Assembly: GCA_944382965.1 (NCBI GenBank)
Contig: CALWOA010000003.1
Coordinates: 1 to 64,000, forward strand
DNA: 64,000 nucleotides
Source: an uncultured Oscillospiraceae bacterium
GTDB taxonomy: Bacteria > Bacillota > Clostridia > Oscillospirales > Oscillospiraceae
Reading direction: 5' to 3'
The translations under genes and the position numbers were made by a program. This document shows positions 9,224-42,620 of this stretch, piece by piece; the stretch's first letter is position 1; every line of letters starts with the position of its first letter. The notes under the pieces are model-generated. The model ran no database searches. It worked only from the letters and a program-made list of their open reading frames with translations, and had not been told where the DNA came from.

Positions 9224-9233
9224 ACGTTTCTCC

Positions 9234-11601: not shown

Positions 11602-11614
11602 ATGCGTTTCCTCC

Positions 11615-12358
11615 CTAAAAAATATGTTCTTCCAACCAATGTACAGAAGGTTCCCCTTCCGGAATTTCCAAGGTCATTGTTGCCTGGGGGCACAGAGTCT
11701 CGGCTCTCTCCAGCAGCGCTTTCATGGGGATGGTGCCCTCTTGCAAATTCTGATGGCTGTCTTGGTCGCCAAAATTGTTGTGTATGTGAAAGTGCCGGAT
11801 GAAGCCTGCGCAGACTTCCAGCCACTCCATCATCGGCACCTGAGAGTAGGCGTTCACATGGCCCACATCCAGACATAGCCCCAGTCGGGGGTGATTGACC
11901 TCCCGAACAATCCGCAAAAGCATCTCCGGCTCCGGCTCCAATACGTTTTCCAAGCACACCGTCATGCCCTCGGGAATCTCAAATTCCCGCCAGAAGGCGA
12001 TGGACTGCTCCTGATACCACACCGGATAGTATAGCCAGGGATTGTAGCCGCCGTGGAGAATCACTTTATCAGCGCCGTAATACCGGGCCATATCCATGGC
12101 CTGCCGATAGCGAAACTTCGCCAGCTGCCGGGCTTTCTGGTCGATGGCACAGGGAAACAATTCGTTAAAGGGACCGTGGAGCACCCGGTGGGATATGCCC
12201 GCAAGGGTTTTCTCCAGGGTACGATCCGTTTCCGGAAAATGCTCGTCCAAGTTCCAGGCGGTGCAAAACTCCGCGATTTCCACCCCCAGGCCATGGGCCC
12301 TGGCAAGCGCTCCTGCTTGGGGATCGATGGTGGAAAGATAAAAACGCTGCCGCCGCAT
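11615..12358 (-). CDS. TIM-barrel sugar-phosphate isomerase/epimerase-like protein in the B12 locus
   Basis: The 247-residue product starts at the ATG 12356-12358, six bases past AGGAGG; the earlier in-frame ATG abuts that site. It belongs to the xylose isomerase-like TIM barrel superfamily (AP endonuclease family 2). Supporting blocks are VLHGPFNELFP, KVILHGGYNPWL, VCLENVLEPEP, LGLCLDVGHVNAYS, FIRHFHIHNNFGDQDSH and TMTLEIPEGE, with Glu, Asp and His at the usual metal-ligand positions. Its reaction is unknown. Its place between the ECF S component and cobT suggests a link to corrinoid or lower-ligand metabolism, but this is only contextual. Confidence 0.8.
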   Translation of the reverse strand: MRRQRFYLSTIDPQAGALARAHGLGVEIAEFCTAWNLDEHFPETDRTLEKTLAGISHRVLHGPFNELFPCAIDQKARQLAKFRYRQAMDMARYYGADKVILHGGYNPWLYYPVWYQEQSIAFWREFEIPEGMTVCLENVLEPEPEMLLRIVREVNHPRLGLCLDVGHVNAYSQVPMMEWLEVCAGFIRHFHIHNNFGDQDSHQNLQEGTIPMKALLERAETLCPQATMTLEIPEGEPSVHWLEEHIF

Positions 12359-12368
12359 ACGCATCCTC

Positions 12369-13064
12369 CTATCCGGCATCCATCATGCCGTATTTTCTCT
12401 TGAGCCGCTCCAGCTTGCTGAGCAGAGGTTTGGAAAACAGCAGCAACGTCACGGCGCAGGCAAGACCGTGCTGCACATTGTAGGCAAATCCTGCGGTAAA
12501 TACCGCCAGGGCGTATTTCCAGGTGATCCGGCTGCTGACGGTGAACACCGTGCAGCAGTCCAGCAGCGGGCCAATTACCAGCACGATGGTGAAAAATCCC
12601 CACACTGCCAGCGCTGCCGGATTGCGCAGGCGGAAACGTTTGTGAAACAGTCCCCCTGCCAGGAAGCCTGCAAAGCCGTAAGCCATCATCTGCCAAGGCG
12701 TCCAAGGTCCTTGGCTGAAAAAGAAGTTGCTGGCAAAGGCTCCTACCGCACCGCAGACAAAGCCGGACTGGGGCCCCAGGGCAATGCCGGTAATCATCAC
12801 AATGGCCGTCATGGGCTTGAAATTGGGAATCAGCATCACCACCCGGGAAGCAACCGCCAGAGCGCACATCACCGCCAACGTTACCAGTTCCCGGGCCTGG
12901 GGCCGCCGGGTCTCAAAAGCCAGGAAAAAGGGAATCATAATTTCCACAATCATCATGGTGCTGGTCAGATAGTACCATCTGCCGGACAACCGGGTTCCCA
13001 GAAACAACGTGCCCGGGATCAGCACAAACAGAAGCAGCAGATTGCAAATCGTGATCTTTCTCAC
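12369..13064 (-). CDS. ECF transporter substrate-binding (S) component, probably for a corrinoid
   Basis: A 231-residue hydrophobic protein with about six membrane segments. It starts at GTG 13064 behind GGAGGG, and this codon overlaps the TGA of the ATPase gene. The segment GPQSGFVCGAVGAFASNFFFSQGPWTPWQMMAYGFAGFLAG is typical of ECF S components. It lies with EcfA and EcfT under a cobalamin riboswitch and next to cobT, so the substrate is inferred to be cobalamin or cobinamide. The substrate is not visible in the protein sequence itself. Confidence 0.83.
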   Translation of the reverse strand: MRKITICNLLLLFVLIPGTLFLGTRLSGRWYYLTSTMMIVEIMIPFFLAFETRRPQARELVTLAVMCALAVASRVVMLIPNFKPMTAIVMITGIALGPQSGFVCGAVGAFASNFFFSQGPWTPWQMMAYGFAGFLAGGLFHKRFRLRNPAALAVWGFFTIVLVIGPLLDCCTVFTVSSRITWKYALAVFTAGFAYNVQHGLACAVTLLLFSKPLLSKLERLKRKYGMMDAG

Positions 13065-14719
13065 CTTGTTCCCTCCAGATTCTTCCGGTACAATTCCGAA
13101 ACATCCTCGGCGGTAACAGCATTCTGGAACACACACCGGCTCATCCGGTTGGCGGCGGTAGTATAAAAGCTGTTCTGGCCGAAAAAGCGGTGAGGGGTAT
13201 CGATGGTGACAATCTGCCCGTCGAAGAACATACCCACCAGATCGGCGTACTCTGCGCAGAACTCCACGTCGTGGGATACCAGGATGATGGTAATACCCTC
13301 CGCTTTCAGTTTTTTCAAAATTTCTGCAAATTTTCCCTTAAAGAAGCTGTCCAAGCCCTTGGTAGGCTCGTCCAGCAGCAGTAGCTTCGGATTGGTCAGC
13401 AGTACTTTCGCCAAAGCTGCCCGCTGCTGCTCGCCGCCGGAGAGGTCATAGGGGTGGGAATCCAGCAGGTGGGTAATCTCACAGGTTTCGGCCACGGCTT
13501 GAATCGGGCCTTCCTCCCGGCACATTTCCCGCAGGTCCTCCCGGAGGGTTTTGCCCACAAACAAGCTCTTGGGGTCCTGGGGCAACATGGCAACGCACCC
13601 CCGGTAAAGGCTGGCACCGTAACTTTTAATTGGTTTTCCAAAGATTTCCACTTTTCCCCGGTAGGGCTTGCAGATACCGCAAATGGTCTTTAAAGTGGTG
13701 GACTTTCCGGCACCGTTTCCACCCACAATGGCAAAAATACAGCCCTTCGGCACTTCCAGATTCACGCCCCGGAGTACGTCCTGTCCCTGCTTTTCATAGC
13801 GGAACCACCCTTCCTGAATCCGCAGGGCATTTTCCCGGGTTTTGGGTGCTTCCGGTTCCATGTCCGGCTCCAGGACGGTCAAGCTTCGGTTTTCAAAGGT
13901 TTTCGTCAGCCAGCTTCTGCCCTCGCGCACCGTCAGGGGGCACGCTCCTTCCGCGCCGGATTGGTAAAATACCCGGGTAGGAGTGGGCAGTGCGGCAAAC
14001 ATGGGAGAGTTCTGCTGCCACAGAAGGCTTCCCACCTGCCTGGGGCCGTCGCTGGCAATGACCCTTCCTTCTTCCATCACCACCACCCGGTCGGCGCTGT
14101 GGTAGATATCCTCCAGCCGGTGCTCGGTGATAATGATGGTGGTACCCAGCTCAATATTGATTTTCCGCACGGTGTTGAGGAAATCCGAAGCGGCAATGGG
14201 GTCCAGCTGGCTGGTAGGCTCGTCCAGAATCAGCACCTGGGGCTGCATGGCCATAATGGAGGCCAGATTCAGCAGCTGCTTCTGGCCGCCGGACAAGGTG
14301 GCAACCTCCCGGTCAAACCAGTCCTGCAGGCCAAAATAGCTGGCCATCTCCGCCACCCGCAGCCGGATGGTTTTCTGGTGCACCCCCAGATTTTCCAGTC
14401 CGAAGGCCAGTTCATGCCAGACTTTGTCCGTGACCAACTGCTCGTCGGGATTTTGCATCACAAAGCCGATTTTTCGGGATTGGTCGTACTGGCTCACCTG
14501 TTCCAGAGGCGTGCCGTCAAACAGCACCTGTCCGCTGCGGCTTCCATAGGGGGTCAGTACGGATTTCAAGTGCCGCAGCAGACTGGTCTTTCCGCTTCCG
14601 CTTTTGCCGCAGAGCACCACATATTCCCCTTTTTCGATGGTCAGATTCACGCCGCTCAAGGTAGGGCGGTTTGCGCCAGGATAGGAAAAGGTCAGATCCT
14701 GGATATGGAAATGTGCCAT
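13061..14719 (-). CDS. ecfA: ECF transporter energy-coupling ATPase, two ABC domains fused
   Basis: The 552-residue protein starts MAHFHIQDLTFSYPGANRP at 14719, behind GGAGGAGG; the frame open further upstream runs inside ecfT and is ignored. Domain 1 (about 1-230) has Walker A GKSGSGKTS, LSGGQKQLLNLASIM and VLILDEPTSQLD. Domain 2 (about 290-552) has GGNGAGKST, LSGGEQQRAALAKVL and LLLLDEPTKGLD. The two halves correspond to EcfA and EcfA', here one polypeptide. It powers the S component through EcfT. It overlaps ecfT by 28 bases and the S-component gene by 4 bases. Confidence 0.95.
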   Translation of the reverse strand: MAHFHIQDLTFSYPGANRPTLSGVNLTIEKGEYVVLCGKSGSGKTSLLRHLKSVLTPYGSRSGQVLFDGTPLEQVSQYDQSRKIGFVMQNPDEQLVTDKVWHELAFGLENLGVHQKTIRLRVAEMASYFGLQDWFDREVATLSGGQKQLLNLASIMAMQPQVLILDEPTSQLDPIAASDFLNTVRKINIELGTTIIITEHRLEDIYHSADRVVVMEEGRVIASDGPRQVGSLLWQQNSPMFAALPTPTRVFYQSGAEGACPLTVREGRSWLTKTFENRSLTVLEPDMEPEAPKTRENALRIQEGWFRYEKQGQDVLRGVNLEVPKGCIFAIVGGNGAGKSTTLKTICGICKPYRGKVEIFGKPIKSYGASLYRGCVAMLPQDPKSLFVGKTLREDLREMCREEGPIQAVAETCEITHLLDSHPYDLSGGEQQRAALAKVLLTNPKLLLLDEPTKGLDSFFKGKFAEILKKLKAEGITIILVSHDVEFCAEYADLVGMFFDGQIVTIDTPHRFFGQNSFYTTAANRMSRCVFQNAVTAEDVSELYRKNLEGTR

Positions 14720-15561
14720 TGAACAGCCTCCTCCAGATAAAGTACAATAGGGATCAGCAAAAACGCCCCGTAAGCAGCCAGGCCCCAGGTGGGCGGGGCA
14801 ATCCACAGTTCTGGGGTAAAGGTTGCTCCGGTGCCTCCTGCCAGCAGCACACCTCCGGCCAGCACCGCCATAGCGCCAATCAGCATCCAATCCCGGGCAG
14901 TCATCCGGTAAATCCGGAAACTGGTACGCTTTGCAGTGCCGTAGCCCCGGGAGCGCATGGCGTCGGCGGTGACAATGCTGCCTTCCAGCGCCCAGTCTGT
15001 CAAGGCAGACAACACCTGCATACCACCGGCAATCTTCTCTTTGGTAGAATTTCCCCCGGTGACACCTTTGCCGATACAGGTACGGGCATCGGCAATCTGC
15101 TTGCCTTTGCGGCCCAGATTGGGAATCATCCGCAGTACCATCACCAACAGCAGCGACAGCGCCGGGATCAGGCTGCCAAACAGGCAGACAAACTTGTCAC
15201 TGGTCAGCACCATACTGTAGCAGCGAAACCACAGGATCATCACCACAAACATCCCCGCTACCGCCATGCCGTAATACAGCGCTTCCAGAGTATAGGGTCT
15301 GTCAAACACCGTAAACAGCAGATGCTCACCGTAGGTGTTCAGCAGTGGGTTCAGCCCGGCAATCAAAAGAAATACCGGAATCAATCCGGCAATTTGCTTC
15401 CATCCGGCGTTCCCTTTGAGCAGCAGAAAATACCCACCGGCTCCCATCCCGCCCACTGCCAGGTACAGCGGGTGCTGAATCACCACGCAAAAGCCAATGG
15501 CCCCCAAAAAGAACAGAAAATTTGTCAGCGGGTGGCACTTGGAAAAGGCATCATAGCGCAT
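14692..15561 (-). CDS. ecfT: ECF transporter transmembrane component EcfT
   Basis: The likely start is ATG 15561 (MRYDAFSKCHPLTNFLFF), giving 289 residues with several membrane segments. EcfT coupling motifs are seen as GGMQVLSALTDWALEGSIVTADAMRSRGYG, which includes the A-x-x-x-R-G type coupling helix. The open frame extends farther upstream, but that region is the cobalamin riboswitch. The Shine-Dalgarno candidate AAAGGGGA lies inside the 3' arm of the riboswitch hairpin (15572-15589), 13 bases from the ATG, so folding would hide it. First gene of the cob-lar transcription unit. Confidence 0.9.
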   Translation of the reverse strand: MRYDAFSKCHPLTNFLFFLGAIGFCVVIQHPLYLAVGGMGAGGYFLLLKGNAGWKQIAGLIPVFLLIAGLNPLLNTYGEHLLFTVFDRPYTLEALYYGMAVAGMFVVMILWFRCYSMVLTSDKFVCLFGSLIPALSLLLVMVLRMIPNLGRKGKQIADARTCIGKGVTGGNSTKEKIAGGMQVLSALTDWALEGSIVTADAMRSRGYGTAKRTSFRIYRMTARDWMLIGAMAVLAGGVLLAGGTGATFTPELWIAPPTWGLAAYGAFLLIPIVLYLEEAVQWHISISRI

Positions 15562-15570
15562 AAACAGAAA

Positions 15571-15800
15571 ACGTCCCCTTTCGGGGACGAAAACGCATAT
15601 TGCCGCAAAAAGCCGGTAATCCTGAAAAACCAACCGCCAGACCGTCCCCAAGAGTCTTGCGCGCTGCGTCAAAGTCCGTATTCCGACTCCGGACGCTGTA
15701 TGCCGGGAACCTTCTCGGATTGCTCCAATGGCTTCCGGCGAGCCTATGTCCGTCTACGGCGGCTTGGTACCGTTGGGATTTTCCCATTCCAATTTTCTTT
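15571..15800 (-). promoter_or_regulatory. Cobalamin riboswitch with switching hairpin before ecfT
   Basis: Read on the minus strand, the region contains blocks resembling the cobalamin aptamer: GGGAAAATCCCAACGGTACC followed by GCCGCCGTAGA, then GCCATTGG with CCGAGAAGG, and near the 3' end GAGTCGGAATAC (15677-15690), the counterpart of the conserved end motif. The expression platform is clear. GGGGACG occurs at 15643-15649 and at 15572-15578, and both can pair with CGTCCCC (15583-15589). The second pairing makes a 7-bp GAAA-loop hairpin followed by TTTTC that also buries the ecfT Shine-Dalgarno. B12 would be expected to favour that OFF hairpin. The aptamer was identified by eye, so exact edges are approximate. 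Confidence 0.8.
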
Positions 15801-15825
15801 GACTGATTGTGTCATTGTTATGCGT

Positions 15826-15854
15826 ATTTTAGCACAGTTTCATTCCGCTGGCAA
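15826..15854 (-). promoter_or_regulatory. Sigma-A-type promoter of the ecf-cob-lar locus
   Basis: Minus strand: TTGCCA (15849-15854), 17-base spacer, TAAAAT (15826-15831), with TG one base before the -10. It lies just upstream of the cobalamin riboswitch. Confidence 0.75.
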
Positions 15855-15865
15855 TCCCTGATTCA

Positions 15866-15899
15866 CAGAAAAAAGCCGCCGGTGCAAAACCGGCGGCTT
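15866..15899 (-). terminator. Terminator of the nitroreductase gene
   Basis: A 10-bp G+C-rich stem (15873-15882 with 15890-15899) closes a 7-base loop and is followed on the minus strand by a run of T. It separates the nitroreductase transcript from the ecfT promoter. Confidence 0.88.
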
Positions 15900-15903
15900 G
15901 AGA

Positions 15904-16410
15904 TTACACTTTTACGATACGTCCCGGCACACGGGGTTTGGTCACCGGCTCTTCATCGGGATAGCCCAGAATGCAGTGGCCTACTCCCTTCAGGTGCTCC
16001 GGCAGTCCCCACTTTTTCAGCAGTTCCTTGCCCTCAGGACTGTCAAATTCCTGCTGTGCCCGGTGAATCCAGCAGCTGCCAATGCCCATTTCGCTGGCAG
16101 CCAGCATCAGATTGCCCATAACCAGGCTGCCGTCTTCCAGCCAGGTATTCCGCTCCGGGTCGGACAGGACCACCACCACGCAGGGGGCGCCGAAGAAGGG
16201 ATCACTGGTGGTGCCCAGAATCTCCGCATTCATCCGGGACAGCTGATCCCGGGTCTGCTTGTCCCGGACGGCAACCATCACGGTTTTCTGGCTGTTCTTG
16301 CCGCTGGCGGCATAGAGTCCTGCCTCCAAAATGGCATCCAGCTCTGCATCAGTGATCTGCTGGGGCTTGTACTTGCGGACGCTGCGGCGGTTTTTCAGTA
16401 GTTCGTGCAT
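15904..16410 (-). CDS. Nitroreductase-family FMN oxidoreductase
   Basis: The 168-residue protein starts MHELLKNRRSVRKYKPQQIT, the typical nitroreductase opening with the Arg-Arg-Ser-x-Arg FMN-phosphate site. It continues with ILEAGLYAASGKNSQKT, SLVMGNLMLAASEMGIGSCWIH and the C-terminal HCILGYPDEEP. Length suits the small subgroup of the family. These enzymes reduce nitro compounds, quinones or flavins with NAD(P)H; the natural substrate cannot be read from the sequence. It stands alone, with its own terminator at 15866-15899. Confidence 0.9.
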   Translation of the reverse strand: MHELLKNRRSVRKYKPQQITDAELDAILEAGLYAASGKNSQKTVMVAVRDKQTRDQLSRMNAEILGTTSDPFFGAPCVVVVLSDPERNTWLEDGSLVMGNLMLAASEMGIGSCWIHRAQQEFDSPEGKELLKKWGLPEHLKGVGHCILGYPDEEPVTKPRVPGRIVKV

Positions 16411-16427
16411 AACAAAATACCTCCTGT

Positions 16428-17573
16428 TTATTTCAGCGCATCCAGCGCTGCTTGAATCTGCGGGTCTTCCTCCCTGGGCAGGGAGTCAAAATAGATTTCC
16501 ATAGCAGTATCTTCATCCACGGTTACGGGAACATCCGGCTCAATGCCCACACCTTCCAGACAGACGCCCTTGGGGGTGTAGTATCTGCCGATGGACAGTG
16601 CCACGGCCGAGCCGTCGCTCAGCTGATAGGTCGTCTGGAAATGTCCTTTGCCACTGGTATGCTCGCCTACCACAATGGCAGCTTCATACTCCTGCAGGGC
16701 TGCGGCAAAAAACTCCGCAGCAGAGTAAGAATCCCCATTGACCAGCACCGCCATAGGCATATCCAGGAAGTTTTCGTCGGATACGTCAACGTCCTCATAT
16801 CCGTCATAGCGCTCTGTACGGAACAAATCGCCCTCCGGCAGCAGATAATCCAGCACCTTCACCAGTTCGTCAGCAAATCCGCCGGGATTATTCCGCACGT
16901 CAAAGATCAGCTTTTCAGCGCCTTGCTCCCGCAATGTCTCAATGGCGGCAATGGTTTCTTCGGAGCAGCGGGAGTCAAAATTCTCGATGGTCACCAATCC
17001 CACCTGATCTTCCAGCATGGTATACGTCGCCACCGGGGTTTCCATATGCCGCCGCTGCACCGTCAATTCCAGTTCCGTTTCCTCTCGCAAAAGAGTCAGG
17101 ACCACATCGGTGCCTTCTTCGCCCCGGACCAGATTACGCACCTGGCTGGCATCGCTTTGCCGGACGTCTTCCCCGTCCACGCCAATGAGCAAATCATCCA
17201 CCTGTACCCCTGCCTCTTCTGCAGGGCCGCCGGGGGTCACCGACATAATCTGAAATCCTTCCACCTCTTCCGAGGACAAGATGGTGATTCCCACGCCCAC
17301 ATAGGCGTTGGCCATGTTCTCCTGGTAGGTTTCGTATTCACTGGCCGGGATGTAATAACTCCAGCGATCGCCGGTGGCAGCTACCATGGCATTCGCCGCT
17401 GCATCTTCCAGGACTGTGGAGTCTGCCTCCTCGATATAGCGCTCCTCAATCAGAGATTGCAGCTGGGACAGCTTGCTTGTTTCCCCGGTGCCTCCCATTC
17501 CCGCCAGGGTCAACGCGGAGGCCAAAGCCGCTACCAGAATATACGAACCGATTTGCAGGACTTTCTGTTTCAA
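16428..17573 (-). CDS. S41-family C-terminal processing peptidase with PDZ domain
   Basis: The 381-residue protein has an N-terminal membrane anchor or signal (about residues 8-27), a helical region, a PDZ domain (about 90-170: GVGITILSSEEVEGFQIMSVTPGGPAEEAGVQVDDLL) and the S41 catalytic domain. The nucleophile is the Ser of NGDSYSAAEF and the general base the Lys of TSGKGHFQT. It is secreted or membrane-tethered on the outer face. It lies last in the ftsE-ftsX-M23-M23-S41 group, a common Clostridia arrangement in which such proteases trim cell-wall hydrolases. That functional link is inference. Confidence 0.93.
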   Translation of the reverse strand: MKQKVLQIGSYILVAALASALTLAGMGGTGETSKLSQLQSLIEERYIEEADSTVLEDAAANAMVAATGDRWSYYIPASEYETYQENMANAYVGVGITILSSEEVEGFQIMSVTPGGPAEEAGVQVDDLLIGVDGEDVRQSDASQVRNLVRGEEGTDVVLTLLREETELELTVQRRHMETPVATYTMLEDQVGLVTIENFDSRCSEETIAAIETLREQGAEKLIFDVRNNPGGFADELVKVLDYLLPEGDLFRTERYDGYEDVDVSDENFLDMPMAVLVNGDSYSAAEFFAAALQEYEAAIVVGEHTSGKGHFQTTYQLSDGSAVALSIGRYYTPKGVCLEGVGIEPDVPVTVDEDTAMEIYFDSLPREEDPQIQAALDALK

Positions 17574-30086: not shown

Positions 30087-30138
30087 TGTTATCCTCAATG
30101 GATGATTCAAATTGTTATCCTCAATGGATGATTCAAAT
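30087..30138. repeat. Perfect 26-bp tandem duplication
   Basis: The unit TGTTATCCTCAATGGATGAT plus TCAAAT occurs at 30087-30112 and again without change at 30113-30138. It lies between two divergent promoters, five bases upstream of the -35 box of the membrane-protein gene. Confidence 0.95.
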
Positions 30139-32598: not shown

Positions 32599-33573
32599 TT
32601 GAATCAGCAGCACAGATCCCTACGGGTGGGGCTGGCAGCCCTGGCCTGTGCCATTGTATTTCGGATGTTTGCCATGGGGCTGCCGGAAAAGCTTCTGCTT
32701 TGGCTGATTCAGCCCGATACCGCCGCATTTCTTACATACCTGGAAACCGGACGTGACGTCCGGTTTCCGTCGTCTAAGGCCAGTTTTTCGCCGGATTTCA
32801 TGGAATCTCCCCCGGCTGCCCCTTCTTTACCGGATTTGGTTCCCGCTGCGGCCTTTTCCGAGCCGGAAGCCCTGGAAATTACCTACGCCGCCAACAAAGA
32901 TCCGGATATTGCCGCGCTGCTTTCCCAGCCGCTGCAATGGGATCTCACCGGCCTGGAACCCACCGTCCTGATTGTCCATACCCATACCACGGAAAGCTAC
33001 ACCAAAGCCGGAGAAGATTACACGGAGACCGCCGGCTGGCGAACCCTGGACGAAAACTACAACATGCTCTCCATCGGCGCGCAGGTGGTGCAGATTCTGG
33101 CGCAGTACGGCATCACCGCCATCCAGGACCGGGAAATCCATGATTACCCATCCTACAACGGCTCCTATGTCCACGCCCGGGAGTCTATCGCCGCGTATCT
33201 GGAGCAATACCCCAGCATCCAGCTGGTTCTGGATCTGCACCGGGATGCCGCCGGTGACGGTTCCGGTCAGCTGCGAACCCTGGCCCAGGTAAACGGGGAA
33301 TCCTCGGCCCAGCTGATGATTGTCCTGGGTACCAACCACGAGCAGTATGAGCAGAACCTGTCTGTGGCGCTGAAGCTCCACACCCAGCTGCAATACCAGG
33401 CCCCCGGACTGATGCGCCCGCTGCAGCTGCGTTCCTCCCGGTTCAATCAGGATCTTTGCCCCGGCGGGCTGCTGATTGAAGTGGGTGCCGCCGGAAATAC
33501 CCACGGGGAAGCCTTGATTGCCGCCCGGCAGCTGGCTCTGGCCATTGCCGCATTGGCCAAAGGCACCGCATAA
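32599..33573 (+). CDS. spoIIP: SpoIIP: stage II sporulation autolysin
   Basis: SpoIIP degrades septal peptidoglycan with SpoIID and SpoIIM during engulfment. The start is TTG 32599, behind AAAGGAGG. The 324-residue protein has a membrane segment (about 9-38) and a C-terminal amidase/endopeptidase domain with VLIVHTHTTESYT, ESIAAYLEQYPSIQLVLDLHRDA and LLIEVGAAGNTHGEA, which carry the zinc-binding His and Glu residues. It marks the organism as an endospore former or a recent descendant of one. Converges tail to tail with the Spo0A-like gene, with only 2 bases between stops. Confidence 0.93.
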   Translation: MNQQHRSLRVGLAALACAIVFRMFAMGLPEKLLLWLIQPDTAAFLTYLETGRDVRFPSSKASFSPDFMESPPAAPSLPDLVPAAAFSEPEALEITYAANKDPDIAALLSQPLQWDLTGLEPTVLIVHTHTTESYTKAGEDYTETAGWRTLDENYNMLSIGAQVVQILAQYGITAIQDREIHDYPSYNGSYVHARESIAAYLEQYPSIQLVLDLHRDAAGDGSGQLRTLAQVNGESSAQLMIVLGTNHEQYEQNLSVALKLHTQLQYQAPGLMRPLQLRSSRFNQDLCPGGLLIEVGAAGNTHGEALIAARQLALAIAALAKGTA

Positions 33574-33575
33574 TC

Positions 33576-34055
33576 TCACGCCGCTTCCTCCAGGCGCTGG
33601 CGCACCACATTGGCAATCCGGGCTACAAACTCCCCGTTGGTGGGCTTGCCCCGGTCCTGGCTGATGGTGTTGCCGAAATACCGGCCCAGCACCTGCCAGT
33701 CTCCCCGGCTCCAGGTCACCTCGATCAGGTGGCGCAACGCCCGCTCCACCCGGGCAGCGGTGGTATCGAAATGGGCCGCCACCTGCGGGTACAGGCCGAA
33801 AGTAATGTTGTGAATGTAGGTCCGGTTCTCCACCACCAGCAGAATGGCCTGAATCATGTACGGATGTCCTACCAGATGATCCGGCGCTCCCAGTTCCAGC
33901 AAAATCTGACGGATCAGCTTCTCCGGGTCAGTTCCCCTGGGTTGTTCCCCGGCCATCAGATTCCGCAGCTCCTCTCGCAAAGCCGTCCGCTCCGCTTCAT
34001 TCCGGGCTGTACACAGCCGCATCAGGGTATTGACCTGCATCTGTAATGTATCCAT
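33576..34055 (-). CDS. Spo0A C-terminal-domain protein without receiver domain
   Basis: The 159-residue protein starts at ATG 34055 behind AAGGAGG. Residues about 50-155 match the Spo0A DNA-binding domain: IRQILLELGAPDHLVGHPYMIQAILLVVE, ITFGLYPQVAAHF, TTAARVERALRHLIEVTWSRGD and KPTNGEFVARIANVVRQRL. The N-terminal phosphoacceptor domain is missing; a short helical segment takes its place. It may bind 0A boxes without phosphorylation control, or regulate other genes. Whether a full Spo0A exists elsewhere cannot be told. Confidence 0.88.
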   Translation of the reverse strand: MDTLQMQVNTLMRLCTARNEAERTALREELRNLMAGEQPRGTDPEKLIRQILLELGAPDHLVGHPYMIQAILLVVENRTYIHNITFGLYPQVAAHFDTTAARVERALRHLIEVTWSRGDWQVLGRYFGNTISQDRGKPTNGEFVARIANVVRQRLEEAA

Positions 34056-34374
34056 CGTTTTTCCTCCTTGATGATTTGATGATATTGTATTGTACCCGTT
34101 TTGTTGGACGGAATTTCTGGTATCCTGGGGATGCGGCATCCCTTACCAGAATTTCGTCCTTTTCTTGTGCAAGCCTACAGAAGTATCCGTAGAATGTTGA
34201 CGAAAGTAAGCAAATATGGTATATTATTTGCGTATTCAGATTACTTCAATCACATTCGATTACTTAAGTAACTTGCTTGCCTGCATTATATCGCTACTTT
34301 AGTCATCTGTCAAGATACAGTAGGCTACTTTTGTAATCTTCTGTGAATTGCACAAATGGTAAGGGGGAACTTTT
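34056..34374. other. Intergenic region with divergent promoters and operator repeats
   Basis: No gene is seen. The left part holds the Spo0A-like leader and its Shine-Dalgarno. The A+T-rich right part (34200-34345) holds the operator repeats listed separately. No clear -10/-35 pair was identified with certainty for either gene. Confidence 0.5.
34239..34338. promoter_or_regulatory. Repeated operator-like sites upstream of the XRE regulator
   Basis: Four copies of a TTACTT/CTACTT core occur: GATTACTTCAATC (34239-34251), the perfect palindrome TTACTTAAGTAA (34260-34271), CTACTTTAGTCAT (34294-34306) and CTACTTTTGTAATC (34325-34338). Centres are about 19, 33 and 32 bases apart. They are probable binding sites of the HTH protein encoded at 34375. 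Confidence 0.6.
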
Positions 34375-34722
34375 GTGTTTTTTAACAGATTCAAAGCCTT
34401 GTGTGACGAAAAAGGCATCAGCGTCTACCGTGCCTGCACCGACATCGGTCTGAACCGCTCGGCGGTTGCCAAGTGGAAAACCGGCGGAAAACCCAACGGT
34501 TCCACCGCCGGAAAGCTGGCAGAATATTTCGGAGTCAGCACCGACTACCTTTTGGGCCAGACAGACGAAAAACTCCCCGGGAATTCTTCCCAGGGAGTCA
34601 GCGACGAGCAGATTAAATTTGCGCTTTTTGGAGGCGACGGGGAAATCACCGACGCCATGTACGAGGAGGTAAAGCAATTTGCCGCCTTCGTCAAGCAAAG
34701 AGAGGCAGAAAAGAAGGAGTAA
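34375..34722 (+). CDS. XRE-family transcriptional regulator (ImmR-like)
   Basis: The 115-residue protein starts at GTG 34375 behind AAGGGGG. Residues 1-62 are a Cro/C1-type HTH (FNRFKALCDEKGISVYRACTDIGLNRSAVAKWKTGGKPNGSTAGKLAEYFGVSTDYLLGQ). The rest is a charged helical tail. It lies two bases before an ImmA-type metallopeptidase gene, the classic ImmR/ImmA pairing in which the protease destroys the repressor on a signal. No phage or conjugative element surrounds it, so this may be a domesticated or free-standing switch. Confidence 0.87.
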   Translation: MFFNRFKALCDEKGISVYRACTDIGLNRSAVAKWKTGGKPNGSTAGKLAEYFGVSTDYLLGQTDEKLPGNSSQGVSDEQIKFALFGGDGEITDAMYEEVKQFAAFVKQREAEKKE

Positions 34723-34724
34723 CC

Positions 34725-35153
34725 ATGCACACCCAAGCCCTCTATGACATTGCCAAACAACAGCATATAGAGGTTTTGCCCTTTCCCCTGCCGGAAAACG
34801 GCTCCATGTCCGTGATGCGGGAAGATGGTGCCTGCTTTGTGGGTATGGACCCGGCGGTTTGTGACGGGGATGTCCAGGAACGGGTGCACCTGAGCCACGA
34901 ACTGGGGCACTGCATCACCGGCAGTTTCTACAACATCTATGCCGCCATCGACTATCGCCGCCGTCACGAAAACCGGGCGGACAAGTGGGCGATCACCACT
35001 CTGATTCCCGTGGATGATCTGGACGATGCGGTGGCTCAGGGCTGTACGGAGGTATGGGAGCTGGCGGAGCGGTTCGGTGTAACGGAGGACTTTGTCCGCA
35101 AAGCCGTGTGCTACTATGTCCACGGCAATCTGGCTACGGAACTGTATTTTTAA
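34725..35153 (+). CDS. ImmA/IrrE-family metallopeptidase
   Basis: The 142-residue protein has the zinc-protease motif HLSHELGHCITG (about residues 54-65) and a downstream RRHENRADKWAI block providing the third ligand, as in ImmA/IrrE proteins. The final third is a small helical domain (LAERFGVTEDFVRKAVCYY). It probably cleaves the XRE regulator encoded just upstream. It starts at 34725, 2 bases after the regulator stop, with AAGAAGGAG as ribosome-binding site. Confidence 0.9.
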   Translation: MHTQALYDIAKQQHIEVLPFPLPENGSMSVMREDGACFVGMDPAVCDGDVQERVHLSHELGHCITGSFYNIYAAIDYRRRHENRADKWAITTLIPVDDLDDAVAQGCTEVWELAERFGVTEDFVRKAVCYYVHGNLATELYF

Positions 35154-35158
35154 AAAAT

Positions 35159-35184
35159 CCCGGCTGCGTTGCTTCGCAGCCGGG
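35159..35184. terminator. Hairpin shared by the ImmA-like gene and the convergent repeat-protein gene
   Basis: CCCGGCTGCG (35159-35168) pairs with CGCAGCCGGG (35175-35184) around a 6-base loop. The minus strand continues into GATTTTTTAA, a good T-run for the repeat-protein gene. Confidence 0.85.
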
Positions 35185-35219
35185 CATTTCATCTTCATTT
35201 CTCCTGCCAAAAAGAAGGC

Positions 35220-35429
35220 TTACTTATCCTGCCCCAGGCAGTTCATGTCATCCAGAGCGCAGGTGGTATCGTCATCTTCCCCAACGGCATTCATGTCACT
35301 GAGTGCGTATTTCTTTTCCTCTTGGGTATCCAGGCAATTCATGTCATTGAGGCCGCAGGTACGATCATCTTCTTCGGTAATTCCATTCATATTGGTCAGG
35401 CCCAGGCTGCGTTTGTTTTCGTCCTTCAT
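35220..35429 (-). CDS. Small acidic protein of four tandem 16-residue repeats, unknown function
   Basis: ATG at 35429 follows AGGAGG by 10 bases; a consensus promoter lies at 35502-35530. After a 6-residue head (MKDENK), the 69-residue protein is four units of exactly 16 residues, with Met-Asn at 14-15, 30-31, 46-47 and 62-63. The unit pattern is x-x-(C/L/Y)-(G/A)-L-x-(D/N)-M-N-x-(I/L/V) followed by an acidic run. Units 2 and 4 carry a Cys pair seven residues apart (25/32 and 57/64); units 1 and 3 do not. The DNA repeats with a strict 48-base period. No signal peptide and no recognised family; no modifying enzyme is next to it. Confidence 0.75.
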   Translation of the reverse strand: MKDENKRSLGLTNMNGITEEDDRTCGLNDMNCLDTQEEKKYALSDMNAVGEDDDTTCALDDMNCLGQDK

Positions 35430-35501
35430 ACTGCATACTCCTCCTTTGTGGATTTCCTGTTTTTGAAAAAGGAGCTGATTCCATCCTACCCCTTTTCTTG
35501 G

Positions 35502-35530
35502 AGTATACCAACGGAAAAGGAAAAAAGCAA
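35502..35530 (-). promoter_or_regulatory. Promoter of the four-repeat protein gene
   Basis: Minus strand: TTGCTT (35525-35530), 17-base spacer, TATACT (35502-35507). Confidence 0.8.
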
Positions 35531-35604
35531 GGGATTTTCCCCCTGCTTTTGACACTGCTTTAAAAGTGACAAAGGCCCATTCCAGATTTTGGCGCTATCC
35601 ACCC

Positions 35605-35633
35605 TTGCGCCAATTCTCGCCTGCGGATATAAT
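35605..35633 (+). promoter_or_regulatory. Promoter of the peroxiredoxin gene
   Basis: TTGCGC (35605-35610), 17-base spacer, TATAAT (35628-35633). Confidence 0.85.
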
Positions 35634-35668
35634 AGCAGTATCCAAACTAAACTGAAAGGAGCACTGCT

Positions 35669-36235
35669 ATGACCAATCTGATTCGAAAGCCCCTGGAGCC
35701 CTTCTGCGTTTACGGCTACTGCCAGGGAAGCAGCCGGCAATATACCCAGGACGACCTGTTGGGCCGGTGGAGCGTACTGTTCTTCTACCCCGCCGACTTT
35801 ACCTTCGTCTGTCCCACAGAACTGAAAGAGCTGGGGCAGCTGCATCCGGAATTTCAGCGGGAAGGCTGCCAGATTTTCTCCGTCAGCGAGGATACCCATT
35901 TCGTACACAAGGCCTGGGCAGATGCTTCCGAGACCATCCGGGAGCTGCCCTTTGTGATGCTGGCAGACCCGGCAGGGGTGCTGGCCCGCCAATTCGGCGT
36001 GCTGATTGAAGCGGAAGGCCAGGCTCTGCGGGCCACGTTCCTGCTCAATCCCGCCGGAGAAGTGGTGCTGTATGAAATCCATGACCTGGGCATCGGCCGC
36101 AGCGGCAAGGAACTGCTGCGCAAAGTTCAGGCTGCCAAGTTTGTTGCCGAACATGGTGACCAGGTCTGCCCCGCCAGCTGGGAACCCGGCGCGGAAACCC
36201 TGACCCCCAGTCTGGATCTGGTGGGTCTGCTGTAA
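35669..36235 (+). CDS. ahpC: AhpC-family peroxiredoxin
   Basis: A typical 2-Cys peroxiredoxin of 188 residues that reduces hydrogen peroxide and organic peroxides. The peroxidatic Cys is in FYPADFTFVCPTEL (about residue 48) and the resolving Cys in QVCPASWEPG (about residue 167). The conserved Arg of the active site and the C-terminal helix are present. It is followed 11 bases later by a separate AhpF N-terminal-like protein, probably its electron donor. Promoter at 35605-35633; no operator was identified. Confidence 0.95.
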   Translation: MTNLIRKPLEPFCVYGYCQGSSRQYTQDDLLGRWSVLFFYPADFTFVCPTELKELGQLHPEFQREGCQIFSVSEDTHFVHKAWADASETIRELPFVMLADPAGVLARQFGVLIEAEGQALRATFLLNPAGEVVLYEIHDLGIGRSGKELLRKVQAAKFVAEHGDQVCPASWEPGAETLTPSLDLVGLL

Positions 36236-36246
36236 GGAGGAAAAGC

Positions 36247-36888
36247 ATGGAACGAAGCCCGCTGATTTCCCCCGAGCTGGAATCCCAGCTGACGCTTCTG
36301 CTGCAAAAGCTGACCGCCCCGGTAGAACTGACCTGCTTTGCCGGAACCGATGAGAAAAGCCGGGAAATGGTCTGCTTTTTGAATCACCTTGCTTCCCTGT
36401 CTCCAAAACTCAGCTGCACTTTCCCTGATCCTGCTCAGGAATCGGAACTGGCGGACAAACTGGACGCCTCCCTGCTGCCGGCTACCGGTGTAGCCCCTGC
36501 CGGTGAAATGCCCCGGATGATTTTCCACGGCATCCCCGGCGGGAAGGAAATCACCGCCTTTGCCGCCGCTGTGCTGGCCGCTGGACAGGCAGCCAAGCCC
36601 CTGGACAAGCCCACCCTGAAAGACATCGGCAAGCTGAAAAAGCCCATGGTGCTGCAGGTGTGCGTTTCCTTAAGCTGCCAGCACTGTGCCCAACTGGTGG
36701 CCCATGCCCAGCGCGTCGCCTGGGAAAACCCATTGGTCACCACCCACATGATCGACGCAAACCTCTATCCCCAGCTGGTAAGCGCCTACAACATCACCCG
36801 GGTTCCCCTGATGGTTATCGACGGCAGCACTGCCATTCCCGGCGGAAAAACCATGGCGGAACTGACCACATTGCTTGCAAAATACTGA
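36247..36888 (+). CDS. Free-standing AhpF N-terminal-domain-like disulfide reductase
   Basis: The 213-residue protein has two thioredoxin-like folds. The N-terminal one (about 20-110) lacks a CxxC; the C-terminal one carries CVSLSCQHCAQLV (about residues 138-150) with an active CxxC. This equals the N-terminal domain of AhpF, which passes electrons to AhpC, but the FAD/NADH reductase part of AhpF is absent. A separate thioredoxin-reductase-like flavoprotein would be needed to complete the chain; none is next to it. Cotranscribed with ahpC; terminator at 36897-36935. Confidence 0.85.
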   Translation: MERSPLISPELESQLTLLLQKLTAPVELTCFAGTDEKSREMVCFLNHLASLSPKLSCTFPDPAQESELADKLDASLLPATGVAPAGEMPRMIFHGIPGGKEITAFAAAVLAAGQAAKPLDKPTLKDIGKLKKPMVLQVCVSLSCQHCAQLVAHAQRVAWENPLVTTHMIDANLYPQLVSAYNITRVPLMVIDGSTAIPGGKTMAELTTLLAKY

Positions 36889-36896
36889 ATTCTATC

Positions 36897-36935
36897 GAAA
36901 ACGCTCAAAAAGCAACTTGCTTTTTGAGCGTTTTT
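36897..36935 (+). terminator. Terminator of the peroxiredoxin operon
   Basis: A stem of about 17 bp, AACGCTCAAAAAGCAA (36900-36915) with its complement (36917-36932), one-base to three-base loop, followed by TTTTTC. Also symmetric enough to act on both strands. Confidence 0.9.
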
Positions 36936-37028
36936 CAGCATTATCACCGCTATTTATAAATTTTAACCAAATTTTGTAAAATCTATGTACAATTTTCGAC
37001 ATTTTTTACAAATGCCGAAATGTGTCAA

Positions 37029-37057
37029 ATGACTTTTCCGTCAAGATGCGTTACACT
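37029..37057 (+). promoter_or_regulatory. Possible promoter of the glycerol operon
   Basis: ATGACT (37029-37034), 17-base spacer, TACACT (37052-37057). Both boxes deviate from consensus. Confidence 0.5.
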
Positions 37058-37069
37058 GAATACAAGGCG

Positions 37070-37092
37070 CTTGGTTTGGTATCGGAACCAAG
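37070..37092 (+). promoter_or_regulatory. Inverted repeat in the glpK leader
   Basis: CTTGGTT (37070-37076) and AACCAAG (37086-37092) flank a 9-base spacer, about 13 bases after the predicted -10 box and 37 bases before the glpK start. It could be an operator or an RNA hairpin. Confidence 0.55.
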
Positions 37093-37110
37093 CAAAACAA
37101 ACCAGCATAA

Positions 37111-38625
<1,515 letters not shown>

Positions 38626-38690: not shown

Positions 38691-39401
38691 ATGTTACCAT
38701 ACATTGCGGAATTTATCGGTACGATGCTTCTGATCCTGTTGGGCGACGGCGTTGTTGCCAACGTCACGCTGAATAAGTCCGGCATGAAGGGCGCGGGCTC
38801 CGTCCAGATCACCTTTGCCTGGGGCCTTGCAGTTATGCTGCCCGCCTTTATCTTCGGTGCTGCTTCCGGTGCTCACTTTAATCCCGCCGTTACCATCGCC
38901 CTGGCCCTGGACGGCACCCTGGCCTGGGGCCTGGTTCCCGGCTACATCATCGCCCAGTTCGCCGGTGCCTTCGTCGGTGCCTGCCTGGTCTACATCATGT
39001 TCAAGGATCACTTCGACGCAACCGAAGATCCCGGCACCAAGCTGGGTGTATTCTCCACCGGCGCTTCCATCCCCAACAAGGGCCGCAACCTGATCTGCGA
39101 AGCCATCGCCACCTTCGTTCTGGTCTTTGCCATTAAGGGCATGGGTCAGGTGGCTGGCCTCAACGGTGCTCAGGGCAACTTCCTGGTCTTCGGCGTCATC
39201 GTATCCATCGGTATGTCTCTGGGCGGCCTGACCGGCTATGCTCTGAACCCCGCCCGTGACATTGGCCCCCGTATTGCCCACGCTCTGCTGCCCATCAAGG
39301 GCAAAGGCTCCTCCCACTGGGATTACGCCATCGTTCCTCTGTTGGGACCCATCCTGGGCGGTATCGTTGCTGTGCTGCTGTACCAAATCATCCCCTGGTA
39401 A
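38691..39401 (+). CDS. glpF: GlpF: glycerol facilitator (aquaglyceroporin)
   Basis: The 236-residue protein has six membrane segments and the two MIP pore motifs HFNPAVT (about residue 63) and LNPARD (about residue 184), with the Asp-Arg pair of glycerol channels. It starts 65 bases after glpK, behind AAAGGAGG. It carries glycerol across the membrane for trapping by GlpK. Confidence 0.96.
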   Translation: MLPYIAEFIGTMLLILLGDGVVANVTLNKSGMKGAGSVQITFAWGLAVMLPAFIFGAASGAHFNPAVTIALALDGTLAWGLVPGYIIAQFAGAFVGACLVYIMFKDHFDATEDPGTKLGVFSTGASIPNKGRNLICEAIATFVLVFAIKGMGQVAGLNGAQGNFLVFGVIVSIGMSLGGLTGYALNPARDIGPRIAHALLPIKGKGSSHWDYAIVPLLGPILGGIVAVLLYQIIPW

Positions 39402-39544: not shown

Positions 39545-40975
39545 GTGTACGATGTAATCATAATCGGCGCAGGTGTCTCCGGCTGCGCCATTGCCCGGGA
39601 ACTGTCCCGCAAGAAGGGAAAGATTCTGGTTGTCGAGCGTGCCGAAGACGTGTGCTGCGGCACTTCCAAAGCCAATTCCGCCATTGTCCATGCAGGTTAC
39701 GATGCCAAGCACGGCACCCTGATGGCAAAACTAAATGTTCAAGGCAGCCGGATGATGCCGAAGCTTGCCAAGGAGCTGGATTTCCACTACGAAAACAACG
39801 GCTCTCTGGTGGTGATGATGAGCGAAGAAGACCGTCCGGCGCTGATGGCTCTGTATGAAAACGGTCTGAAAAACGGCGTGGAGCAGCTGCAGATTCTGGA
39901 GCGGGACGCCCTGCGGGCCATGGAACCCAACATCTCCGACAATGCGGTGGCAGCTCTCTATGCCCCCACCGGTGCCATCGTCTGTCCCTTCGGTCTGACC
40001 TTTGCTCTGGCGGAAAACGCCGCCAAGAATGGGGTGCAGTTCCAGTTTGACAGCGAAGTGACCGATGTTCAGAAAATCGATGGCGGCTGGAAGGTTGTCA
40101 CCGCCAAGGGCACCTTGGAAACCAAAGCCGTTGTCAACGCCGCCGGTGTCTACGCCGACAAAATTCACAACATGGTGTCTTCCGAAACCATGACCATCAC
40201 CCCCCGGCGGGGCGATTACTTCCTGCTGGATCGGGCAACCCAGGGCTTTGTAAAAAATACCATCTTCCAGCTTCCCGGAAAATACGGCAAGGGCGTTCTG
40301 GTTGCCCCCACGGTACACGGCAATACCATTGTCGGCCCCACCGCCATTGACATAGAGGACAAAGACGGCACCGCCACCACCCAGGCAGGACTGGACGACG
40401 TGCGCAGCAAGTCCGGCATTGCCGTAAAGAACCTGCCTCTGCGGCAGACCATCACCAGCTTTGCCGGTCTGCGCGCCCATGAAGCCCGGCACGAATTCTT
40501 CATCGGGGAAATCGCCCCCGGTTTTGTGGACTGCGCCGCCATTGAATCTCCCGGCCTATCCAGCGCCCCCGCCATTGGCGTGATGGTTGCGGATATTGTT
40601 AACGGTATCCTCCACCTGGAGGACAACCCCAACTTTGACGGTACCCGCAAAGGCATCCTCGACCCCAAGACCTTGAGCCCGGAAGACCACGCTGCTCTGA
40701 TTCGAGAAAATCCCGCTTACGGCAACGTGATCTGCCGCTGCGAAACCATCACCGAAGGGGAGATTGTGGATGCCATCCACCGCACCCCCGGCGCCCGGAG
40801 CCTGGATGGTGTCAAGCGCCGCACCCGAGCTGGCATGGGCCGGTGCCAGGGTGGATTCTGCAGCCCCAGAGTCATGGAAATTCTGTCCCGGGAACTGGGA
40901 ATCCCCATGGATCAGGTCACCAAATCCGGTGGTAACTCCAAGCTCATTGTGGGCACCAACAAAGATTCCCTGTAA
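39545..40975 (+). CDS. GlpA-like FAD-dependent glycerol-3-phosphate dehydrogenase with BFD-type Fe-S domain
   Basis: The 476-residue protein starts at GTG 39545, 10 bases past AAAGGAG. It has the FAD-binding start YDVIIIGAGVSGCAIAREL, the DAO-fold core with TPRRGDYFLLD and PTVHGNTIVGPTA, and a C-terminal BFD-like [2Fe-2S] domain with ICRCETITEGE and GRCQGGFCSPR. This is the architecture of the anaerobic GlpA subunit. Together with the next two genes it would form a three-part glycerol-3-phosphate dehydrogenase passing electrons to the quinone pool or another carrier. The substrate is inferred from the adjoining glpK and glpF. Confidence 0.9.
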   Translation: MYDVIIIGAGVSGCAIARELSRKKGKILVVERAEDVCCGTSKANSAIVHAGYDAKHGTLMAKLNVQGSRMMPKLAKELDFHYENNGSLVVMMSEEDRPALMALYENGLKNGVEQLQILERDALRAMEPNISDNAVAALYAPTGAIVCPFGLTFALAENAAKNGVQFQFDSEVTDVQKIDGGWKVVTAKGTLETKAVVNAAGVYADKIHNMVSSETMTITPRRGDYFLLDRATQGFVKNTIFQLPGKYGKGVLVAPTVHGNTIVGPTAIDIEDKDGTATTQAGLDDVRSKSGIAVKNLPLRQTITSFAGLRAHEARHEFFIGEIAPGFVDCAAIESPGLSSAPAIGVMVADIVNGILHLEDNPNFDGTRKGILDPKTLSPEDHAALIRENPAYGNVICRCETITEGEIVDAIHRTPGARSLDGVKRRTRAGMGRCQGGFCSPRVMEILSRELGIPMDQVTKSGGNSKLIVGTNKDSL

Positions 40976-40987: not shown

Positions 40988-42253
40988 ATGAAAGAATATG
41001 ATCTTGTTATCATCGGCGGCGGCCCCGCCGGACTGGCTGCGGCAGTGGCCGCCAGAAAAGCAGGTGTGGAAAGCATCCTGATTCTGGAACGGGACAACGA
41101 ACTGGGCGGCATTCTGAACCAGTGCATCCACAGCGGCTTCGGCCTGCACACCTTCCAGGAAGAATTGACCGGCCCGGAATACGCCGGACGGTTCATTGAC
41201 CAGGTAAAGCAGCTGCAGATTCCCTACAAGCTGAAAACCATGGTACTGGATCTGGCGCCGGACAAAACCGTTACCGCCATGAACGCCGAGGACGGTCTGT
41301 TCCAGATTCATCCCAAGGCTGTAATCCTCGCCATGGGCTGCCGAGAACGGCCCCGGGGCGCACTGAATATTCCCGGTTTCCGTCCTGCCGGCATCTACAC
41401 CGCAGGTACTGCCCAGCGGCTGGTGAATATGGAAGGCTATCTGCCCGGACGGAATGTGGTGATCCTGGGCTCCGGCGATATTGGCCTGATCATGGCCCGG
41501 CGTATGACCCTGGAAGGTGCCAAAGTCCATGTGGTTGCCGAATTGATGCCCTACTCTGGCGGTCTGAAACGGAACATCGTCCAATGTCTGGATGACTTTG
41601 GCATCCCGCTGAAACTGAGCCACACCGTAGTGGACATTCAGGGCAAAGAGCGGGTGGAAGGGGTGACCCTGGCCCGAGTGGAAAACGGCAAGCCCGTCCC
41701 CGGCACGGAAGAACACTACCCCTGTGACACGTTGCTTCTGTCCTGCGGACTGATTCCGGAAAACGAACTGAGCCGCAGCGCAGGCGTCACCATTAATCCT
41801 GTGACCAACGGCCCCGCTGTTAACGAATCTCTGGAAACCAGCATTCCCGGCGTATTCGCCGCCGGCAACGTGCTCCACGTTCACGATCTGGTGGACTACG
41901 TTTCCGAAGAAGCCGCCGCTGCTGGCGTCCACGCCGCCCGGTACATTTCCCAGGGCCAGTCTCCCGCCGGAAAGGAAATTCCCATTCGCTGTGAAGGCGG
42001 CGTGCGGTATACCGTCCCTGTATCCATTCGCCCCCAGGAACTGGAAACGGATGCAGTGGTTCCCCTGCGCTTCCGGGTAGGCAATGTCTACCAGAACAAA
42101 CGGATTGTGGTATACGCCGGAGAAACCCAGATTTTCCAGCGCAAAGCCCGGGTTCTGGCTCCCGGCGAAATGGAAACCGTGAATCTGAAGGCCAGCGTGC
42201 TGCAAGAGCATGGGGATGCTCCGGAAATTCTTGTGAAGTTGGAGGATGCCTGA
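40988..42253 (+). CDS. GlpB-like NAD(P)/FAD-dependent oxidoreductase subunit
   Basis: The 421-residue protein has two dinucleotide-binding sites: LVIIGGGPAGLAAAVAARKAG near the start and VVILGSGDIGLIMARRM near residue 157. Other blocks are NQCIHSGFGLHTF, ILAMGCRERPRGALNIPGFRPAGIYTAGTAQ and FAAGNVLHVHDLVDYVSEEA. The sequence is closest to the thioredoxin-reductase-like flavoproteins that accompany GlpA and DUF1667 in Clostridia. It takes the place of GlpB, though it is not homologous over its length to E. coli GlpB as far as I can judge. Starts 12 bases after the GlpA-like stop. Confidence 0.87.
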   Translation: MKEYDLVIIGGGPAGLAAAVAARKAGVESILILERDNELGGILNQCIHSGFGLHTFQEELTGPEYAGRFIDQVKQLQIPYKLKTMVLDLAPDKTVTAMNAEDGLFQIHPKAVILAMGCRERPRGALNIPGFRPAGIYTAGTAQRLVNMEGYLPGRNVVILGSGDIGLIMARRMTLEGAKVHVVAELMPYSGGLKRNIVQCLDDFGIPLKLSHTVVDIQGKERVEGVTLARVENGKPVPGTEEHYPCDTLLLSCGLIPENELSRSAGVTINPVTNGPAVNESLETSIPGVFAAGNVLHVHDLVDYVSEEAAAAGVHAARYISQGQSPAGKEIPIRCEGGVRYTVPVSIRPQELETDAVVPLRFRVGNVYQNKRIVVYAGETQIFQRKARVLAPGEMETVNLKASVLQEHGDAPEILVKLEDA

Positions 42254-42254
42254 T

Positions 42255-42620
42255 ATGAAAAAGGTAAATTTAATCTGCATCGGCTGTCCTCTGGGCTGTC
42301 CTCTTACCGTGGAAATGGAAGGGGATCAGGTTCTGTCCGTCACAGGCAATACCTGCAAAAACGGCGATAAATACGCCCGGAAAGAGATGACCAATCCCAC
42401 CCGCGTGATTACCAGCACTGTCCGGGTCACCGGAGGCAAACTGGCGATGGTCTCGGTAAAAACCGCATCCGATGTACCCAAAGGAAAGATTTTCGACTGC
42501 GTAAAGGCGCTAAAAAGTGTGGACATTCCGGCCCCGGTTCATATGGGGCAGGTCATCGTTGCTGACATTGCCGGAACCGGCGTTCCGGTGATTGCCACAA
42601 AGAATGTAGACGCTTGTTGA
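42255..42620 (+). CDS. DUF1667 Cys-rich protein of the glycerol-3-phosphate dehydrogenase cluster
   Basis: The 121-residue protein starts at ATG 42255, 9 bases past GGAGGA; an alternative ATG at 42246 abuts that site. Cys residues in ICIGCPLGCPLTV (residues about 7-16), CKNGDKYARKE and the C-terminal NVDAC fit a small iron-sulfur or zinc protein. DUF1667 proteins accompany GlpA/GlpB-like pairs and are thought to be an electron-transfer subunit. A terminator follows at 42624-42647. Confidence 0.88.
   Translation: MKKVNLICIGCPLGCPLTVEMEGDQVLSVTGNTCKNGDKYARKEMTNPTRVITSTVRVTGGKLAMVSVKTASDVPKGKIFDCVKALKSVDIPAPVHMGQVIVADIAGTGVPVIATKNVDAC

Follow-up and report, generated by a model that had tools for sequence, protein, structure and literature searches.

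A repeat protein encoded beside ahpC and a standalone protein disulfide oxidoreductase: a possible third component of a split AhpF-type peroxidase

Reactivation of a peroxiredoxin by a protein disulfide oxidoreductase (PDO) has been reported for Sulfolobus solfataricus (PMC7278568). AhpC with a PDO-type reductant is already known; a third component of the type presented below is undescribed in the databases and literature searched. How strict anaerobes of the gut defend themselves against peroxide is only partly understood. The window, i.e. the whole stretch of DNA analysed (64,000 nucleotides, positions 1 to 64,000 of contig CALWOA010000003.1, forward strand), was taken from an uncultured Oscillospiraceae bacterium (GCA_944382965.1); it carries a gene for a small repeat protein (REP) next to ahpC and a standalone PDO gene. 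Loci are denoted below by L and genomes by G.

The REP open reading frame (35429..35220, minus strand) encodes 69 aa (MKDENKRSLGLTNMNG...NCLGQDK) arranged in four 16-residue units. As stated in the preliminary description, Met-Asn recurs at positions 14, 30, 46 and 62 with a strict 16-residue period and Cys-x6-Cys is confined to units 2 and 4; the self-match at lag 16 amounted to 17 residues, a value reached by 0 of 20,000 residue shuffles at lags 8–32. The 48-base DNA repeat claimed there stood in part: self-identity (lags 10–109) peaked at lag 96 (0.57) and lag 48 (0.55), the next value being 0.39, but TRF gave no tandem array at the gene, and the DNA is thus not a clean tandem. The ribosome-binding site described earlier is a good one (AAAGGAGG, 35440..35447, minus strand) and is located 10 nt before the ATG; the same sequence precedes the ATG in L024–L027. 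The terminator was likewise recovered, as an intrinsic terminator-like hairpin at 35159..35184 (minus strand; listed on both strands) between REP and a convergent M78/IrrE-like gene. The consensus promoter was not: a scan at REP returned 0 sigma-70-type sites (0.7 expected), and just a TGnTATACT extended −10-like string was spotted nearby by eye. Rfam models gave no match at gathering scores over 33500–38000. Among 50 upstream regions, none had fewer than three mismatches to a PerR-box consensus; three mismatches were found in L035, L051 and L055, and L035 alone was rare among shuffles (1%). No PerR-like box is supported upstream, and these regions thus lend no support to control of REP by peroxide. 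Elsewhere in the window, an HTH gene is followed by the IrrE/M78-like gene converging on REP (34375–35153, plus strand), with one terminator-like hairpin between this gene and REP; a 26-bp unit stands twice in exact tandem at 30087–30138, and tandem arrays of 15-bp period lie at 2875–3030.

REP had been described as standing alone, which is wrong: it is divergent from an ahpC-PDO pair, and this neighbourhood is kept across genomes. The peroxiredoxin gene ahpC (35669..36235, plus strand; PF00578; TIGR03137 239.6 bits, below the 272 cut-off) is followed by PDO (36247..36888, plus strand). Downstream on the same strand are an FGGY kinase gene assigned to glycerol kinase (GlpK) by sequence recognition (37129..38625), a MIP channel gene (GlpF-like, 38691..39401), a gene for an FAD oxidoreductase with a BFD [2Fe-2S] domain (GlpA/GlpO-like, 39545..40975; best NCBIfam model NF033460, type 2 glycerol-3-phosphate oxidase, below cut-off), a Pyr_redox_2 flavoprotein gene (40988..42253), whose product we take to be GlpB-like, and a DUF1667 protein gene (42246..42620); the kinase, the flavoprotein and the DUF1667 protein are frequent neighbours of REP. 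Conservation of neighbours, proposed earlier as a check, was confirmed by tblastn over 54 REP loci (the window, 50 pattern-scan loci and three more; flank lengths vary): PDO sequence was present in 48 (a few copies cut or broken) and AhpC in 43. The six loci without PDO had at most 1.2 kb upstream (L029, L031, L041) or at least 5.5 kb (L035, L042, L057); L031 (109 bp upstream) and L057 (a 7.4-kb contig with two tandem REP copies) were the only loci matched by none of the neighbour queries. Two copies per genome were also seen in L058, ~8.4 kb apart. Gene orders differ: REP is divergent from ahpC in e.g. the window, L051 and L064–L073, ends an ahpC-PDO-glp operon in e.g. L030 and L036, and directly follows PDO in L046 and L047. 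Such repeated linkage in differing orders favours function over inherited order. When crude ORFs (at least 80 aa) of 51 loci were clustered, those clusters recurring in at least 12 were without exception AhpC, PDO, glp/dha genes or DUF1667, one of them lying antisense to DUF1667; the radical SAM gene recognised among the recurrent clusters (10 loci) is HemW-like.

Relatives were collected with six peptide patterns against 84,980 species genomes, a search by which distant members are missed; 64 matching stretches yielded 50 REP loci, and genome samples added more. The relatives (more than 50) come mostly from genomes titled Lachnospiraceae or related names, with a few Oscillospiraceae. In 391 genomes of the class samples the REP protein query matched the window's own genome alone, and the REP profile this genome and G396. 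The family is under purifying selection, synonymous changes dominating: of 22 pairs selected, the 17 whose dS was finite (some of them saturated) gave dN/dS values of 0.008–0.222. Neither the absence of homologues nor the absence of purifying selection, named in the preliminary description as grounds for rejection, was encountered. Pfam, NCBIfam and PHROGs held no family with a meaningful score, PDB gave no match, and no open-licence paper showing the family was found, a motif-string search included; the earlier remark that nothing described by name came to mind thus holds for these sources. A mobile or phage gene was rejected as an identity, tblastn giving no match in phages or plasmids (plasmids only for the Cys-type query); viral_contigs searched with the family patterns gave no match. 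A degenerate NMNG-repeat pattern matched 113 contigs, with no REP relative among the ORFs listed by the filter, and weak matches in same-genus genomes (E 0.03–0.9, mostly long frames) were taken as chance. A weak relative with NMNG units (L181:5963-6154, plus strand, G396) lies 1.4–1.8 kb upstream of genes for an EncFtn-like protein and encapsulin; a second example was not found among 32 genomes of G396's family. Two LNxMNG units also occur in a 61-aa ORF (L120:4955-5137, minus strand), which matched the REP family profile with E 2e-4.

The window PDO aligned to residues 344–553 of 555 of TIGR03143 (AhpF_homolog), i.e. its C-terminal half, with 130.7 bits against a whole-fusion cut-off of 687.65, and to TIGR02187 (PDO) with 119 bits against 185; judged by these alignments, it is related to both families and a formal member of neither. 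A single thioredoxin domain was recognised by Pfam, in the C-terminal half of the protein; the N-terminal half is presumably a second thioredoxin fold, as in known PDO and the AhpF N-terminal domain. The flavoprotein (thioredoxin-reductase) half of AhpF is missing from the window REP locus; elsewhere in the host genome a TrxA-TrxR-like gene pair is present, by sequence recognition.

Co-occurrence was followed in two sets of genomes. Within the genus of the window, REP (E below 1e-20) was found in three of 37 genomes (G000, G007, G020). The search for the close standalone PDO covered 41 genomes, four of them outside the REP search, and recovered it from these three alone, in G020 as a 39-aa fragment at the end of a contig. 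Among 299 genomes of G456's family, Cys-type REP was found in G456, G457, G649 and G701, which gave the four best PDO matches, all standalone (43–100% identity, frames of 226–253 aa); a fifth REP match (G770) is of the arsenic type described below. PDO-like matches occurred in 54 of these 299 genomes, and in the 50 without Cys-type REP the frame is mostly as long (~490–700 aa) as is usual for AhpF fusions. Three genomes depart from this: G514 with a standalone frame of 231 aa, G704 with a shortened fusion, and G717, whose fusion frame is interrupted. In G514 and G704 ahpC adjoins the PDO-like frame, and no REP was found within 3.6 kb or by genome profile search. The AhpC-linked frame of G704 (L145) resembles an AhpF fusion without most of the flavoprotein half and possibly represents an independent route to standalone PDO. 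Across 49 REP genomes, standalone PDO was present in 46 (including broken G459 and cut G475 and G494); G461 and G468 have the fused AhpF-type PDO only, and G483 has no PDO. In an unrooted tree of 74 PDO domains obtained by a quick method, 44 REP-linked sequences fell on one side of a branch and 30 others, the PDO halves of AhpF-type fusions among them, on the opposite side (SH-aLRT 99), and REP linkage required 1 change against a shuffled mean of 23.7; a usable PDO was lacking in 10 of the 54 loci (absent from six, cut or broken in four), the rows without REP comprised 26 from the 299-genome matches and four of the same genus (G448 and G450 not REP-searched), and G457 was left out. REP thus combines genomic linkage with co-inheritance, as an AhpC-PDO component would, the exceptions being G461, G468 and G483; its association with ahpC and standalone split-AhpF PDO is well supported.

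The unit count covered 59 proteins of the Cys type (the window and pattern-scan loci supplied 53, later searches six; near-copies included). Four units were present in 57, five in L042, and L045 is cut by a contig end; the unit number, for whose variation in 48-bp steps a check had been proposed, thus does not vary freely and is nearly fixed. Spacing was 16 residues in 150 of 177 steps. The 236 units contained both Cys (159) or neither (77), never a single one (0); the pair was found in unit 1 never, in unit 2 of 59/59, in unit 3 of 42/59 and in unit 4 of 57/58 proteins. The 32-residue super-repeat proposed earlier is therefore not general, unit 3 carrying a pair in most proteins; it is lineage-specific. 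The residue before MN is D in 142 of 159 Cys units and N in 67 of 77 Cys-free units. For a PDO tree of 44 rows, parsimony gave 3 changes of the unit-3 pair (bootstrap 5–95% range 3–4), 2 of them forced by well-supported branches, with L052 as a long branch; an AhpC tree of 42 rows likewise gave 3. By hydropathy and charge, the four proteins tested plot as disordered relative to the Uversky line. REP does not fit a thioredoxin or glutaredoxin (CxxC in 0/59, no Pfam or PDB match), and an EF-hand/dockerin calcium loop (D-x-N-x-M-N-G, by eye) was set aside with the glycine one place off.

Profile searches revealed a second type of REP, with four units of the same 16-residue design and no Cys-x6-Cys, in five genomes (G770, G482, G815, G816, G804), of which one genus contributes four. 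In both L123 and L119 its gene lies between those for an SBF-type (ACR3-like) permease and ArsD, with ArsR, ArsA and a LMW-phosphatase-type ArsC around it (Pfam: five L123 genes, two L119 genes); by inspection L178 and L179 have the same ars gene order, L178 with DUF2703 and ArsD in one frame. The gene is directly upstream of ArsD or DUF2703-ArsD. In L180 an intact ars-type REP is found beside apparent remnants of arsR and ACR3, the ACR3-like piece having no Pfam match. The dN/dS values were 0.21–0.44 in six of ten pairs; the other four were saturated. The L178 protein (5914-6099, minus strand) ends with C-G-K-C (CxxC), which is absent from the other four. The L123 operon is flanked by reverse-transcriptase-, relaxase- and recombinase-like genes (4395-16673, sequence recognition) and for this reason may sit on a mobile element. 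Because ArsD and DUF2703 belong to the thioredoxin-like clan (PMC3091736), the partner type common to both REP types may be a tandem thioredoxin-fold protein, a suggestion based on four operons, three from one genus.

REP is tentatively proposed to be the third component of the AhpC-PDO peroxidase, a reading that is plausible but falls a little short of probable. It would act as a small, acidic, cytosolic and, by its composition, probably disordered protein in a clade whose AhpF-like disulfide oxidoreductase half is a protein on its own, lacking the flavoprotein half. The core [C/L/Y]-x-[LI]-x-[ND]-M-N-[C/G], with its Lx[ND]MN motif, would dock a tandem thioredoxin-fold partner, i.e. PDO in the peroxide branch and DUF2703/ArsD in arsenic operons. 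In the peroxide branch the Cys-x6-Cys of most units would cycle between dithiol and intra-unit disulfide, and REP would pass electrons to, or buffer disulfides from, PDO and AhpC during peroxide reduction, the direction being presumptive. Of the roles suggested earlier, the disulfide-binding part of a "metal- or disulfide-binding repeat" fits best, the Cys of a unit coming and going together amid thiol-redox neighbours. As the general thioredoxin system is a possible reductant of PDO, an extra carrier such as REP is not required. Redox cycling of Cys-x6-Cys pairs cannot be an ancestral function shared with the ars-type proteins, since these have none; a pairless branch and a unit 1 free of Cys point to binding as the older function, to which redox was added later. 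A broader and speculative extension, rather unlikely as a whole, would make NMN-repeat proteins a new multivalent class docking on tandem thioredoxin-fold enzymes, in which the Cys branch of gut anaerobes replaces the lost AhpF flavoprotein half as a multi-site dithiol electron carrier and the pairless branch serves ArsD/DUF2703 in detoxifying arsenic.

A docking or scaffold function alone, with LxNMN motifs holding thioredoxin-fold enzymes and the Cys forming structural disulfides or a binding switch, would accommodate the persistence of the motif without Cys in unit 1 of 59/59 proteins and in the ars type, and the thioredoxin-fold partners in both peroxide and arsenic contexts; however, retention of the pair in units 2 and 4 is at odds with it, and we regard it as unlikely, if worth keeping in mind. 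Buffering or chaperoning of a metal (zinc, iron or copper) by Cys pairs and acidic linkers is improbable: the chains hold mostly 4 or 6 Cys (range 2–8) and many Asp/Glu, and both Cys of a unit are needed together, but no metal gene was recognised among the clusters in at least 12 of 51 loci, CC, CxC and CxxC occur in 0/59 Cys-type proteins, and Cys-x6-Cys is missing in arsenic operons, the very setting in which a ligand for a metalloid should be of most use.

Glycerol metabolism has to be weighed, as the tblastn census of 54 loci gave GlpK in 36, GlpF in 36, DUF1667 in 35, GlpA and GlpB in 34 each, GlpP in 26 and DhaK in 23, and on the GlpK and DhaK counts REP could belong to it; it would serve a glycerol-3-phosphate oxidation operon as carrier or regulator for GlpA/GlpB/DUF1667, the peroxidase merely removing H2O2 that the operon might make. 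L035 and L042, with glycerol genes and no ahpC/PDO in the available stretch (genomes G461 and G468, fused PDO only), agree with such a service, but in 14 of 54 loci ahpC-PDO is present and the available stretch contains none of the glycerol query genes (one of the 14, L025, is on a 4.6-kb contig), which makes the peroxidase pair the core link of REP, and co-occurrence follows standalone PDO; this role is decidedly improbable. The multi-core peptide precursor suggested in the preliminary description, a RiPP whose cores are modified by an enzyme encoded elsewhere, is very improbable, for although REP is small and repeated with a conserved core and paired Cys, no maturase, protease or exporter was recognised among the clusters (ORFs of at least 80 aa) in at least 12 of 51 loci, no leader/core boundary is evident, and the core number is nearly fixed (four units in 57/59).

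If the proposal of a third peroxidase component is true, a conserved repeat-built AhpC component tied to the split-AhpF clade would constitute new electron (or docking) wiring to a peroxiredoxin. Testable predictions on a motif proposed to recognise thioredoxin-fold proteins follow from Cys pairs that are either complete or absent and from the pairless arsenic paralogue.

Metallothioneins are, as REP is, small and Cys-containing; REP differs from these in having a single C-x6-C spacing per unit, with Cys lacking in whole units or, in the ars type, in all pairs, and a metallothionein-like identity was disfavoured with CC or CxC in none of the 59 Cys-type proteins. Multi-core RiPP precursors, e.g. 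ranthipeptides, have short repeats with Cys and Asp/Asn, as REP has; unlike them, REP has no recognised maturase nearby, a nearly fixed unit number and a thiol-redox neighbourhood. Archaeal TrxR-PDO-peroxiredoxin relays (S. solfataricus) resemble the REP loci in a standalone PDO able to pass electrons to a peroxiredoxin and differ from them in that the relay, as described in the available part of the source, mentions no repeat protein (PMC7278568). With the AhpC-AhpF/AhpF_homolog (TIGR03143) alkyl hydroperoxide reductases the locus shares AhpC and a PDO module whose homologue is the C-terminal half of AhpF_homolog; it differs from them in that the flavoprotein half is missing, PDO is encoded separately, and REP is added as a third protein, one with Cys repeats.
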